This document shows positions 2,621 to 6,527 of a stretch of DNA of 35,307 nucleotides, piece after piece. Location: contig JAJRQL010000217.1 of NCBI GenBank assembly GCA_024280265.1, positions 1 through 35,307 of the forward strand, read 5' to 3'. Position 1 is the first letter of the stretch, and every line of letters begins with the position of its first letter. Position numbers and translations under genes: made by a program. The stretch comes from Deltaproteobacteria bacterium. GTDB taxonomy: Bacteria > Desulfobacterota > Desulfobulbia > Desulfobulbales > Desulfocapsaceae. The notes under the pieces were generated by a model. That model saw only the letters and a list, made by a program, of their open reading frames with translations, had not been told where the DNA came from and ran no database searches.

Positions 2621-3256
2621 ATGAGTTTTCCTGGAGTAACAGATCTTGGGCTTTTTATCATAGCAGGCCTGATCCTGAACATCACCCCAGGTGCCGATCT
2701 GCTCTATATTACCAGCCGCAGTGCTGCCCTTGGGAAAAAGGCCGGGATGATTGCAGCACTCGGTATCGGCACCGGTTGTATGGTCCATGTGGCTGCAGCG
2801 TCTCTTGGCTTCTCGATGATTCTGGCTTCTTCTTCGCTGGTTTTCAGTATTGTGAAGTACCTGGGTGCAGTCTATTTGATCTATCTTGGAATACATACCC
2901 TGCTCTCCCTGAAGAATAGTAATTCCGAACAGGAGAAGCAGCTTCAACAGACAGCAACTGCACAGATATTCAGACAGGCAATTCTCATCAATGCCCTGAA
3001 CCCTAAGGTTGCCCTCTTTTTCATGGCCCTTCTGCCGCAATTCGTCTCAGCAGAGGCAAGTCATCCCAGTCTGATATTTTTCTTTCTCGGGGTGTTGTTT
3101 ACTGTAAATGGAACAGTGATAAATATCCTCATGGCTCTTTCTACCTCTATTGTCGGTGCTAAACTCCAGCATCTTAGCGTACTGCCAGAGCTTATGAAAA
3201 CCATGGTCGGAACACTCTTTGTCGCCCTCGGTATCCGCCTGGCATTCTTCTCTTGA
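2621..3256 (+). CDS. LysE/RhtB-family amino-acid exporter
   Basis: An inner-membrane exporter of the LysE/RhtB superfamily, whose members pump out amino acids or related small metabolites. The 211-residue protein is the family's usual size, with about six hydrophobic segments. It has the N-terminal signature NITPGADLLYI near residue 20 and the mid-protein INALNPKVALFFMALLPQFV near residue 125. Substrate cannot be told from sequence. It lies 33 bp after the HAD gene on the same strand. A second LysE-family gene lies at 5910-6527 and shares these two signatures, so the pair may be paralogues. Confidence 0.88.
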   Translation: MSFPGVTDLGLFIIAGLILNITPGADLLYITSRSAALGKKAGMIAALGIGTGCMVHVAAASLGFSMILASSSLVFSIVKYLGAVYLIYLGIHTLLSLKNSNSEQEKQLQQTATAQIFRQAILINALNPKVALFFMALLPQFVSAEASHPSLIFFFLGVLFTVNGTVINILMALSTSIVGAKLQHLSVLPELMKTMVGTLFVALGIRLAFFS

Positions 3257-3267
3257 GCACACAGTAC

Positions 3268-3300
3268 AAAAAAACCCCTTCCAGATGATCTTGGAAGGGG
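3268..3300 (-). terminator. Intrinsic terminator of the small sigma-54 gene
   Basis: A perfect 9-bp stem (CCCCTTCCA at 3275-3283 with TGGAAGGGG at 3292-3300) has an 8-nt loop. Read on the minus strand the stem is followed by seven T residues (positions 3274-3268). On the plus strand it is followed by TCAGGGGAGG without a T run. It therefore serves minus-strand transcription, ending the short gene at 3376-3543. Confidence 0.8.
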
Positions 3301-3375
3301 TCAGGGGAGGGGAAAAGAAGATATATATAAAGTGGCTTTACAGCCAACGGAGAAACATGAAATTTTTCACGAAAA

Positions 3376-3543
3376 TTATGTTGCCGTGATCATTCCTCTG
3401 ACCTGATATTTTGTGAGTATTGATCGCTGCAATTCAAAAATCTCAGCCGTAAGCTTTGCAATTCTGCCTGAGTCAGGGCTTGTTTGTTGAAGGAGATGTC
3501 TTGTGGCACGTCTGACAGCAATTTCATGGCGTAAAATTTTCAT
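3376..3543 (-). CDS. Small 55-residue protein under a sigma-54 promoter
   Basis: A short open frame beginning MKILRHEIAVRRATRHL and ending YQVRGMITAT. I do not recognise it. The product is basic and predicted mostly helical, with no signal peptide or membrane segment, and the stretch RIAKLTAEIFELQRSIL (residues 27-43) could form an amphipathic helix or short coiled coil. Support for a real gene comes from context. A GAGGAC ribosome site lies about nine bases before the ATG, a near-consensus sigma-54 promoter lies about 46 bp upstream, and a strong minus-strand terminator lies about 75 bp after the stop. It is a one-gene transcription unit facing the LysE gene. The transcript might instead act as an RNA. 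Confidence 0.62.
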   Translation of the reverse strand: MKILRHEIAVRRATRHLLQQTSPDSGRIAKLTAEIFELQRSILTKYQVRGMITAT

Positions 3544-3600
3544 TTTGTTGTCCTCATGATCTAAGAAAAAAGTGTTGTTTCAAATTCTATTTTAAGTAAC

Positions 3601-3615
3601 GCAAGGGGTGTGCCA
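3601..3615 (-). promoter_or_regulatory. Sigma-54 (RpoN) promoter
   Basis: On the minus strand the sequence reads TGGCAC-ACCCC-TTGC, an exact match to the -24 TGGCAC and -12 TTGC blocks of the sigma-54 consensus, with exactly 10 bases between the GG and GC dinucleotides. The expected start is near 3589, giving a leader of about 46 nt before the ATG at 3543. Sigma-54 promoters need an enhancer-binding ATPase, and a suitable inverted repeat lies about 140 bp upstream. Confidence 0.75.
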
Positions 3616-3716
3616 GAACGACGGAAGTGTCTATGTTGTTGAAAGTACGCATATGTGGAATGGTACTTTTGGGGAAGTATGGGTTGTTTGGAGAAAAGGT
3701 GAATAGAAAGTATCCA

Positions 3717-3740
3717 TTTTACTCGGTAGCATGAGTAAAA
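3717..3740. promoter_or_regulatory. Putative enhancer-binding site (8-8-8 inverted repeat)
   Basis: TTTTACTC-N8-GAGTAAAA is a perfect inverted repeat of two 8-bp arms. Its centre lies about 140 bp upstream of the start predicted for the sigma-54 promoter at 3601-3615, within the range usual for NtrC-type activators. Neither side is followed by a T run, so a terminator for ogt is unlikely, although a 3' hairpin of the ogt transcript is a possible alternative. Confidence 0.5.
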
Positions 3741-3771
3741 AGTATTCAATTGTCTGGTTAAGGAGTAGTTG

Positions 3772-4296
3772 TCAGGATGATGCCAGGGTCACTTTCATGT
3801 GTGAGATGATATGACCTTCCAGGAGAAGCAGGAATTTTTTGATCTCAGGCCCTCCGGTAAAGCCTGAGATCTTGCCGGATTTTCCGATTACTCGGTGACA
3901 GGGAATGACTATGGGAAGTGGATTGGCTCCATTTGCACTGCCCACTGCCCGTACTGCCTTGACTCTTCCCATGAGTTTCGCCTGTTCCTGGTACGAATGT
4001 GTCTTTCCGTATGGTATGGTCAAAAGAGTTTCCCATGCCAGTTGCTGAAACTCTGTGCCCCGGAAGGACAGGGGCAGGTTGAAATGTGTTCTTTCTGCCC
4101 TGAAATATTCCTGTAACTGGGTCCGGGTACGGCTGATAATGGTGTTGTCACCCCGTGGAAGGGGCCCGGCTTTCTGGAGAACGCTTCCCCAGTTACCAGC
4201 AAAGACAATTTTTTTCAGGAATTGATGATTAGCGACTATTACAATAGTTCCAACGGGAGACAGATATTTCTGGTAGCGGGTTGTGGTGGTGTCCAT
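3772..4296 (-). CDS. ogt: Methylated-DNA--[protein]-cysteine S-methyltransferase
   Basis: A suicide DNA-repair protein that moves the alkyl group from O6-alkylguanine to its own cysteine. The active-site block IPCHRVIG is present near residue 133, preceded by the helix-turn-helix region with RAVGSANGANPLPI and the Arg finger, and followed by SGFTGG. The 174-residue length fits the Ogt class rather than the larger Ada protein, since no Ada Zn-binding Cys cluster is present. The ATG at 4296 lacks a good ribosome site, but it places YLSPVGTIVIVAN at the normal distance from the N-terminus. It is transcribed alone. Confidence 0.93.
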   Translation of the reverse strand: MDTTTTRYQKYLSPVGTIVIVANHQFLKKIVFAGNWGSVLQKAGPLPRGDNTIISRTRTQLQEYFRAERTHFNLPLSFRGTEFQQLAWETLLTIPYGKTHSYQEQAKLMGRVKAVRAVGSANGANPLPIVIPCHRVIGKSGKISGFTGGPEIKKFLLLLEGHIISHMKVTLASS

Positions 4297-4400
4297 TTTG
4301 AAAGGGTCTACTGGTGATGAAGAGTCTTTGTAATGGGGTTGGAGAGTGGTTTGTAAAATGATTGTTCTGTTGTTAAATAATGGTTTTATGACTCATTCTA

Positions 4401-4498
4401 TTGCCGATCCATTTGAATAACATATTTAGGCCTTTCCGGCATGTATTACCGATATTATATATGCCAGCAGGTGTCGGGCATGCCCTGTTCTTTTTTTT
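4401..4498 (+). ncRNA. Candidate small RNA with terminal T run
   Basis: The 318-bp gap between ogt and the transglycosylase gene contains a 9-bp hairpin (GGCATGTAT at 4438-4446 with ATATATGCC at 4457-4465, one G-U pair). A second GC-rich hairpin follows at 4468-4487 (CAGG/CCTG around GGGCATGCCC), then eight T residues at 4491-4498. A weak promoter (TTGCCG at 4401, TATTTA at 4423, 16-bp spacer) would start transcription near 4435, just before the first hairpin. The arrangement resembles a small RNA of about 60 nt with an intrinsic terminator. The second stem is short, so this is only a candidate. Confidence 0.3.
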
Positions 4499-4614
4499 GA
4501 GAGGCTGATTTTAAGCCGTTTATTATCAAACAAATGGTCATTGGGGGCATGCTGTGGTAAAAAGGTTATAATAATAAATACCAAAACATCTCTTTATAAT
4601 ATACACAGGTATCC

Positions 4615-5844
4615 ATGAGGAATTATAATATATTTTCAGTACTGTTGTTGTGCCTTTTCAGTGTTTTTTCTATTGCATTCTCACCGGTAGCTCAGGCTGT
4701 TCCCGTTGACAGTCAGAGTTTTCAAGAGTTTCTGGACTCTTTTTATAAAGAGGCAGCAAAAAAAGGAATCCAGAAAAAGACCTATGACAGGGCTTTCGCC
4801 ACCGTGACAGCCCCAGATAAAACCGTGTTGAAGAACGCACAATATCAGCCGGAGTTTACCACAGAGATCTGGGACTATCTTGATACCCGGGTAAATCGCA
4901 GGAGTGTTGATGAAGGCAGGATCATGGCCCGGGTGTATGGAGATCTGCTGTCTCGGATCGAATCTCAATTCGGTGTAGCACCGGAGGTGATACTTGCTAT
5001 CTGGTCCATGGAGACCAGTTATGGAGCTGCTCTTTTGCGCACCTCACGTCTCTATTATGTGCCACGGTCTCTTGCTACTCTGGCCTACGCCGATAAACGG
5101 CGCCAGGAATTTGCCCGCAAACAGCTTCTGGCTGCGCTGGAAATCGTCCAGGCAGGAGATGTGGAGTTGGACCAGCTCACAGGATCCTGGGCCGGTGCCA
5201 TGGGCCATACACAATTTATTCCGACCAGTTTTCTTGCCTATGGGGTCGATATGGATGGGGATGGTCATCGTGATATCTGGAACTCCATACCTGACGCCCT
5301 GGCAACCGCCGCAAACCTGCTGGCAAGTAACAAATGGAAGACTGGAAAACCCTGGGGGTATGAGGTACTTGTCCCGGATAAAGGTGGACAGCTTGAAGGC
5401 CAGAAAAAAACATTGGCTCAATGGCAGCAGCTGGGTTTTGTAAGACCCGGAAAGAACGCTTTTGATTACCCCGAAGAGGAAGCTGAGCTGAAGATGCTGG
5501 GTGGCGACAAGGGCCCCGGGTTTCTCATGCTGCATAACTTCTTTGTTCTCAAGCGTTACAATAATTCTGATTTCTACGCACTTGCAGTCGGGCTTCTTGC
5601 AGACAGGATAGCAGGAAGAGCCGCCATGTCTCAAACATGGCCGCGGCCAAAAGGAGCACTTACCGTGGAGGAAAAGTTTGAGGTTCAGGAATTGTTGAAA
5701 GAGAAAGGTTTTTATTCCGGCGAGATAGATGGCAGAATTGGCAGCAATAGCAGGAAGGGAATACGGGAATTTCAGATTCAGAATGATTTGGAAGTAACTG
5801 GTCAAGCCTCCAAGGATGTCCTGAAAGTGCTCCGAAAGAGATAA
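4615..5844 (+). CDS. Lytic murein transglycosylase, MltB family, with peptidoglycan-binding domain
   Basis: An exported enzyme that cleaves the glycan strands of peptidoglycan, forming 1,6-anhydromuramic ends. Residues 1-28 form a signal peptide (Leu/Phe-rich core ending in VAQA) with no lipobox Cys, so the protein is probably soluble and periplasmic. Residues 30-330 are the SLT_2 domain; the catalytic Glu is E133 in IWSMETSYGA, and AGAMGHTQFIPTSFLAYGVDMDGDG is the typical downstream core. Residues about 350-407 are a PG_binding_1 domain with GFYSGEIDGRIG and REFQIQNDLEVTG. TATAAT-like boxes lie at 4567 and 4595, without a convincing -35. The 409-residue length is normal. A LysE-family gene follows 65 bp downstream. 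Confidence 0.92.
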   Translation: MRNYNIFSVLLLCLFSVFSIAFSPVAQAVPVDSQSFQEFLDSFYKEAAKKGIQKKTYDRAFATVTAPDKTVLKNAQYQPEFTTEIWDYLDTRVNRRSVDEGRIMARVYGDLLSRIESQFGVAPEVILAIWSMETSYGAALLRTSRLYYVPRSLATLAYADKRRQEFARKQLLAALEIVQAGDVELDQLTGSWAGAMGHTQFIPTSFLAYGVDMDGDGHRDIWNSIPDALATAANLLASNKWKTGKPWGYEVLVPDKGGQLEGQKKTLAQWQQLGFVRPGKNAFDYPEEEAELKMLGGDKGPGFLMLHNFFVLKRYNNSDFYALAVGLLADRIAGRAAMSQTWPRPKGALTVEEKFEVQELLKEKGFYSGEIDGRIGSNSRKGIREFQIQNDLEVTGQASKDVLKVLRKR

Positions 5845-5909: not shown

Positions 5910-6527
5910 ATGACTCTTACTGCCTGGTTTTCTCTTGCATCTATCTGTGTCGTAGGAGCCATGTCGCCGGGGCCAAGTCTCGCTGTTGTTTTAAAAAACA
6001 CTTTGGCTGGTGGTCGTTCTGAGGGAGTGAAAACTGCAGTTGCTCACGGACTCGGGGTCGGCTTATATGCCTTTGCGACAGCAGCCGGGCTTGCAGTCCT
6101 GATCACCGGGAGTCCAATATTGTTTCAGGTAGTGCAGTGGCTGGGTGCTTTTTTTCTGGTATATCTTGGGGCGAAGGCGCTCGTTGGAAACACCGGTATC
6201 GCCCAGGCGGCCCAGACGGAGGCAGATTTTACACACAAGGGGCATGGCTTTCGTGTCGGTTTTCTTGCCGCTTTTCTTAATCCCAAGCTGGCCCTCTTTT
6301 TTGCTGCTCTCTTCAGCCAGTTTGTTTCAGCCGATGCCCAGTTATCAGAAAAAATGTTAATGGCTCTGACTGCTGCATTTATCGATGCCGGATGGTATCT
6401 GCTGGTGGTGCTTGTTCTCTCCCAGTCACGGATATTGGGAGTACTACGTCACAGGGCAAATGTGCTGGATAAGATATTCGGGGTCCTTCTCATTATGCTG
6501 GCGGTACGACTTTTTATGGCCCCGTAA
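5910..6527 (+). CDS. LysE/RhtB-family exporter (second copy)
   Basis: An inner-membrane amino-acid or metabolite exporter of 205 residues. It has the signature GAMSPGPSLAVVLKNTLAGG near residue 16, six hydrophobic segments, and the central FLNPKLALFFAALFSQFVSA. It resembles the protein at 2621-3256 in these blocks but differs elsewhere, for example in the N-terminal signature (SPGP here, TPGA there). The ribosome site is modest (GGGCGAGAG before the ATG). The transported compound is not predictable. Confidence 0.88.
   Translation: MTLTAWFSLASICVVGAMSPGPSLAVVLKNTLAGGRSEGVKTAVAHGLGVGLYAFATAAGLAVLITGSPILFQVVQWLGAFFLVYLGAKALVGNTGIAQAAQTEADFTHKGHGFRVGFLAAFLNPKLALFFAALFSQFVSADAQLSEKMLMALTAAFIDAGWYLLVVLVLSQSRILGVLRHRANVLDKIFGVLLIMLAVRLFMAP

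Follow-up and report, generated by a model that had tools for sequence, protein, structure and literature searches.

The 55-codon gene on the minus strand of the window (the 35,307-nucleotide stretch analysed here, contig C229 of the 3.3-Mb draft genome G000, whose completeness is ~96%) very probably encodes a stand-alone version of the helical hairpin at the centre of proteins of the periplasmic ZraP/Metal_resist family, as judged from sequence comparisons. The joint claim that this mini-ZraP has that identity and is, in addition, a regulated, cytoplasmic product is held with good confidence, while control of its gene by a regulator of the ZraR type is reasonably likely. These assignments name a small protein family and link the mini gene with a stress circuit of known type.

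The mini gene and its relationship to ZraP

The mini-zraP coding sequence occupies positions 3376-3543 (minus strand; 55 codons plus a stop), and is preceded by a ribosome-binding site, GAGGAC (3550-3555, minus strand), and followed by an intrinsic terminator, CCCCTTCC...GGAAGGGG, with a run of seven T (3268-3300, minus strand). All three had been described in the initial annotation and are indeed present at these positions, the ribosome site and the terminator being read directly from the sequence. Orthologues of the mini were detected in 5 of the 19 other genomes of Desulfocapsa, a genus that takes part in sulfur cycling, giving six copies in total (G000, G001, G006, G008, G010 and G012). 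A profile of the mini scored 98-113 bits in these 6 of the 20 genus genomes, with the next match at 53 bits; the scores of the six are inflated because the model was built from those same sequences, and the single window protein, used as a query, already retrieves the other five with E values of 2.4e-9 to 7.6e-18.

All six frames align from the same Met, and the terminator recurs in each, as does the ribosome site, which reads GAGGA or AAGGA in the other orthologues. A check of the 55-residue frame for synonymous bias yielded pN/pS values of 0.23-0.47 across the 15 pairs of orthologues, with synonymous sites near saturation, and divergence by codon position amounted to 0.33, 0.26 and 0.59. On these comparisons the frame is a real gene under purifying selection; a chance ORF is ruled out by six orthologues at 98-113 bits together with the pN/pS range. 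The argument of the initial annotation for a real product is likewise supported at the sequence level, since both the frame and the promoter spacing are conserved in the six orthologues. The reading frame upstream of the start meets a stop at a distance of 7-12 codons in G000, G008 and G012, and stays open for 56-105 codons, past the promoter, in G001, G006 and G010, so that in the latter three genomes the assignment of the start depends on the promoter and the ribosome site together with the Met common to all six.

The initial annotation did not recognise the protein, which is nevertheless recognisable as the hairpin core of ZraP through its full-length relatives. Profile-profile comparison matched mini residues 4-52 to seven full-length proteins of the genus (97.8% probability, E 1.1e-12), and the profile of these seven proteins finds PDB 3lay, a zinc resistance-associated protein, at E 3.9e-8, its other two PDB matches reaching only E 0.14 and 0.95. 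The family link rests on these full-length intermediates, because the mini itself scores 18.1 bits against Metal_resist (PF13801), below the 29.2 cut-off, and has no BLAST match to E. coli ZraP; among the six minis, three match Metal_resist with E values of up to 0.1. Neither the mini by itself nor the mini profile retrieved ZraP from the PDB sequences, and no curated family model matched the small protein family above its cut-off in the searches carried out here. The AlphaFold model of the mini predicts two helices, at residues 2-20 and 24-54, that form a hairpin (pLDDT 75.8, pTM 0.39), and comparison of this model with known structures returned six entries, all generic helical hairpins with Z of at most 4.9.

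The window protein also matches, more weakly, 24 other loci in relatives, all of which hold open frames of 143-231 codons rather than short ones and, by eye, encode signal peptides and Gly/Met/Cys/His-rich tails. In the aligned sequences, also inspected by eye, the mini has neither the signal peptide nor the N-terminal linker nor the tail seen in the full-length proteins; the window protein has no Cys, and both of the His/Cys-bearing terminal regions are missing from it. As for the full-length proteins themselves, the NCBIfam ZraP model matches four of the five tested, all far below its 200-bit cut-off, and does not match that of G006, while of the two scanned against Metal_resist (cut-off 29.2) that of G006 passes at 34.9 and that of G018 narrowly fails at 28.1.

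The mini thus shares with the ZraP of E. coli and Salmonella (NF008584, PDB 3lay), which is associated with ZraS-ZraR, the hairpin core as traced via the full-length relatives, whereas it lacks their signal peptide, Cys and His/Gly/Met-rich tails, comprises 55 residues as against 141, and lies in a different neighbourhood that is not beside a kinase-regulator pair. With the full-length Desulfocapsa ZraP-like proteins (Metal_resist, PF13801) it has the core sequence, the sigma-54 promoter and the dyad position in common; unlike the mini, these proteins have a signal peptide as well as tails, and their genes are located near gamma-glutamyltranspeptidase and/or FeoB rather than near ogt/mltB. CpxP and Spy are relatives of ZraP that are likewise helical, stress-induced and periplasmic, with different regulators.

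The sigma-54 promoter and the upstream dyads

The exact sigma-54 promoter that the initial annotation had identified, TGGCACACCCCTTGC (3601-3615, minus strand), is present, and an exact TGGCAC-N5-TTGC recurs 65-72 nt before the ATG in all six orthologues. This pattern occurs at 8 sites in the whole 3.3-Mb genome, compared with none for a backwards control pattern. A sigma-70 scan of positions 3000-4700 produced two weak 9-of-12 matches on the minus strand (3616-3589 and 3583-3556), the total in this region being 5 matches versus 2.9 (sd 1.9) in shuffled sequences.

Further upstream, the initial annotation had drawn attention to a perfect 8-8-8 inverted repeat, TTTTACTC-N8-GAGTAAAA (3717-3740, minus strand). 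The repeat is perfect, but its right arm, GAGTAAAA, occurs in this position in none of the six genomes but the window's, and the alignment of the six upstream regions conserves GAATACTTTTTACTC and GGATACTTTCTATTC and not the right arm, which rules out the palindrome as the operator. The first of these conserved blocks, putative enhancer dyad 1 (3733-3747, minus strand), contains the left arm of the repeat, and the second, putative enhancer dyad 2 (3701-3715, minus strand), is positioned 32 bp from it. Regulation by sigma-54 and an enhancer-binding protein, as originally proposed, therefore stands with respect to the promoter, whose spacing is conserved, and changes with respect to the enhancer, which appears to consist of ZraR-type tandem dyads and not of the palindrome.

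Dyads were scored as pairs of G-R-R-T-N7-A-Y-Y-C set 30-33 bp apart, a motif that was defined after looking at the sequences. In all six mini promoters and in 17 of 19 full-length promoters, the best pair precedes the -24 element by 130-137 nt. In the window the pair has the full score, which was reached by none of 200 shuffles; overall, the score of the pair was reached by at most 2 of 200 shuffles in four of the six minis (at most 1 of 200 in these) and in 6 of the 19 full-length promoters, the weak pairs being those of the G006 mini (49 of 200) and the G001 mini (17 of 200). The constant position of the dyads is better evidence than their scores, since the motif was defined post hoc, the related promoters are not independent, and few pairs are significant alone. 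Half-site counts exceeded those of all 300 shuffles in both the mini and the full-length sets (13 versus 2.4, and 20 versus 7.8, respectively), while genome-wide TTTTTACTC is not enriched (63 occurrences, versus 86 for the control). In a survey of the window's genome that covered the 8 exact promoter loci and 30 of the 63 half-site loci, the mini promoter was the only one of the 8 exact sigma-54 sites to possess a full-score dyad pair, the rest scoring 10-12 of 16.

The comparisons with full-length promoters (half-site counts, conserved blocks and dyads) were based on 19 of the 25 full-length loci that were fetched: L010, L019, L024 and L031 were excluded because they had no sigma-54 match of 8 of 10, and the cut at a score of 8 was uneven, L013 and L027 being left out and L012 and L015 kept. 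L046 (G005) was not part of these comparisons.

The E. coli K-12 zraP gene displays a similar arrangement, with GAGTAAAAATGACTC and GAGTCATTTTTACTC set 31 bp apart upstream of TGGCACGGAAGATGC, a pair reached by none of 200 shuffles and one that we take to be the ZraR site. The mini promoter resembles it in the sigma-54 element, in the two dyads ~31-32 bp apart and in the half-site, which is the same. From this resemblance it would seem that E. coli and the Desulfocapsa relatives have the ZraR enhancer layout in common. Binding of ZraR to the intergenic region before E. coli zraP is described in PMC8249747 and PMC7657598.

Proposed role of the mini protein and its activator

In the mechanism that we propose, envelope or metal stress would lead to the activation (phosphorylation) of a ZraR-type response regulator, which would bind the two dyads and loop to the sigma-54 polymerase, thereby switching on the mini gene. 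The resulting short mRNA would end at the terminator, and the mini protein, because it has no export signal, would stay in the cytoplasm, where it probably self-associates. We lean, if only slightly, towards the view that a periplasmic stress protein became cytoplasmic when it lost the export signal and the metal tails but retained its sigma-54 enhancer switch, which would create an internal arm of the envelope-stress response.

The ZraP of enterobacteria has been described as a zinc-containing chaperone of the periplasm and an accessory of ZraSR (PMC8249747, PMC7657598), and the titles and abstracts retrieved from a mainly open-access literature mention no cytoplasmic or leaderless ZraP. By analogy, the mini may tentatively be regarded as an internal accessory or adaptor of the same response, binding a kinase, a regulator or misfolded clients. 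We prefer this to a plain cytosolic holdase, a rather unlikely reading in which hairpin oligomers would shield unfolded proteins under metal or envelope stress and would have no signalling role. Such an activity agrees with the description of ZraP as a chaperone (PMC8249747) and with the two-helix hairpin predicted for the mini; however, the mini corresponds to no more than the hairpin at the centre of the longer proteins, so that a holdase surface would require self-association. Whichever its role, the mini offers a natural minimal ZraP core for probing the function of the hairpin in the absence of metal sites and outside the periplasm.

With regard to the activator, a relative of E. coli ZraR (55-59% identity) was the best match in 17 of the 19 genus genomes covered by the regulator searches, including all six that hold a mini (G019, the twentieth, was missing), and in these six its recognition helix is nearly identical to that of E. 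coli ZraR. In the window's genome this relative is encoded at G000:C242:2757-4085, with 59% identity to E. coli ZraR and a near-identical recognition helix (GNKSEAARRLGITRKTL versus GNKTEAARQLGITRKTL in E. coli), and the runner-up among 24 C-terminal matches in that genome is ~55% identical to it. The mini does not have the gene of the ZraR relative as a neighbour, the locus of that gene (L062) has no half-site or sigma-54 match, and the relative is also found in genomes with neither a mini nor a full-length zraP. Inspection by eye of L062, L058, L059 and the other loci of ZraR relatives revealed no zraP and no histidine kinase in the flanking sequence covered.

A conserved operon near FeoB (L118 2452-7552, L119 3425-8607 and L120 2582-7841) comprises a full-length zraP, a DUF4405 membrane protein, an unknown protein, a histidine kinase and an NtrC-type regulator. 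It is unlikely, though worth weighing, that the mini is activated by another NtrC-type regulator, for example this one, which in G018, G002 and G011 belongs to the same operon as a full-length zraP and is matched in the window's genome by a 73% relative. Nonetheless, at E 1e-125 no relative of the operon regulator turned up in G001 or G010, which both have a mini, and the recognition helices of this regulator and of ZraR differ. Control of the ZraR type is accordingly the better bet.

The 3' UTR, distribution and neighbourhood of the mini gene

The 3' UTR has the same order in all six minis: a small hairpin (TGGCTGTAAAGCCA; 3333-3346, minus strand), an AT-rich stretch and a CU-rich tract (TATATA and the tract at 3301-3332, minus strand, conserved across the orthologues), and the terminator. 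The energy of the small hairpin was reached by 5, 5, 9, 21, 5 and 43 of 300 shuffles in the six minis, and on the automatic alignment it pairs in only four of the six because the register is off. The CU-rich tract is anti-Shine-Dalgarno-like, and its computed pairing with the ribosome-binding site, for which no control was run, amounts to 0.3 to 4.8 expected pairs, lowest in the window's genome.

A 3'-end small RNA from this region is possible. That the RNA is the main product, the 3' UTR functioning as a small RNA in a gene that is dual-function or whose peptide is secondary, is improbable. The blocks common to all six minis, a hairpin reached by 5 to 43 of 300 shuffles and its absence, by eye, from 13 full-length zraP 3' UTRs would fit such an RNA; on the other hand, tandem terminators would explain the hairpins, and the protein itself matters, since its frame is under purifying selection. 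Furthermore, no Rfam family matched at its gathering score, which rules out a known Rfam RNA; the one chance-level match was ncr1575 (27.8 versus 60 bits, E 0.057).

Across the 20 genus genomes, many of which are incomplete, five possess only a mini, eight only a full-length zraP, one both and six neither. The six minis form one clade with a support of 1.00 in a midpoint-rooted tree of 25 sequences, based on a short core alignment and on 19 of the 25 fetched full-length loci (not the same 19 as in the promoter comparisons), and the mini probably has a single origin within Desulfocapsa. Among the matches listed for the 257 genomes of the order there was no seventh mini. One candidate, G091:C67, was noise, and another, G075:C5, turned out to hold a zraP-like gene of full length that is interrupted by an in-frame stop. 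In the latter gene (L144, ~1470-1958) the single stop lies before the core and reflects either a sequencing error or decay. Truncation at both ends and presence in only 6 of the 257 genomes, among the matches listed, could suggest that the mini is a decaying, functionless zraP fragment, but this is scarcely credible given that six species agree in start, promoter, ribosome site and terminator and that pN/pS values are well below 1.

The mini locus is separate from the full-length zraP loci and has its own neighbourhood, formed in the window by ogt (3772-4296, minus strand), a gene for an MltB-type lytic transglycosylase (4615-5844, plus strand) and one for a LysE-type exporter (2621-3256, plus strand). 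In the comparison of the six loci, mltB adjoins the mini in G000, G001, G006 and G012, and ogt in G000, G006 and G010; the contig of G010 stops before the expected position of mltB, and in G008 the mini is 766 bases from the contig end, with upstream sequence that by eye resembles the end of ogt. The end of the LysE-type gene at 2621-3256 is faced by the terminator of the mini gene. A second LysE-type exporter is encoded at 5910-6527 (plus strand), and the two LysE-type genes flank the mini/ogt/mltB cluster.
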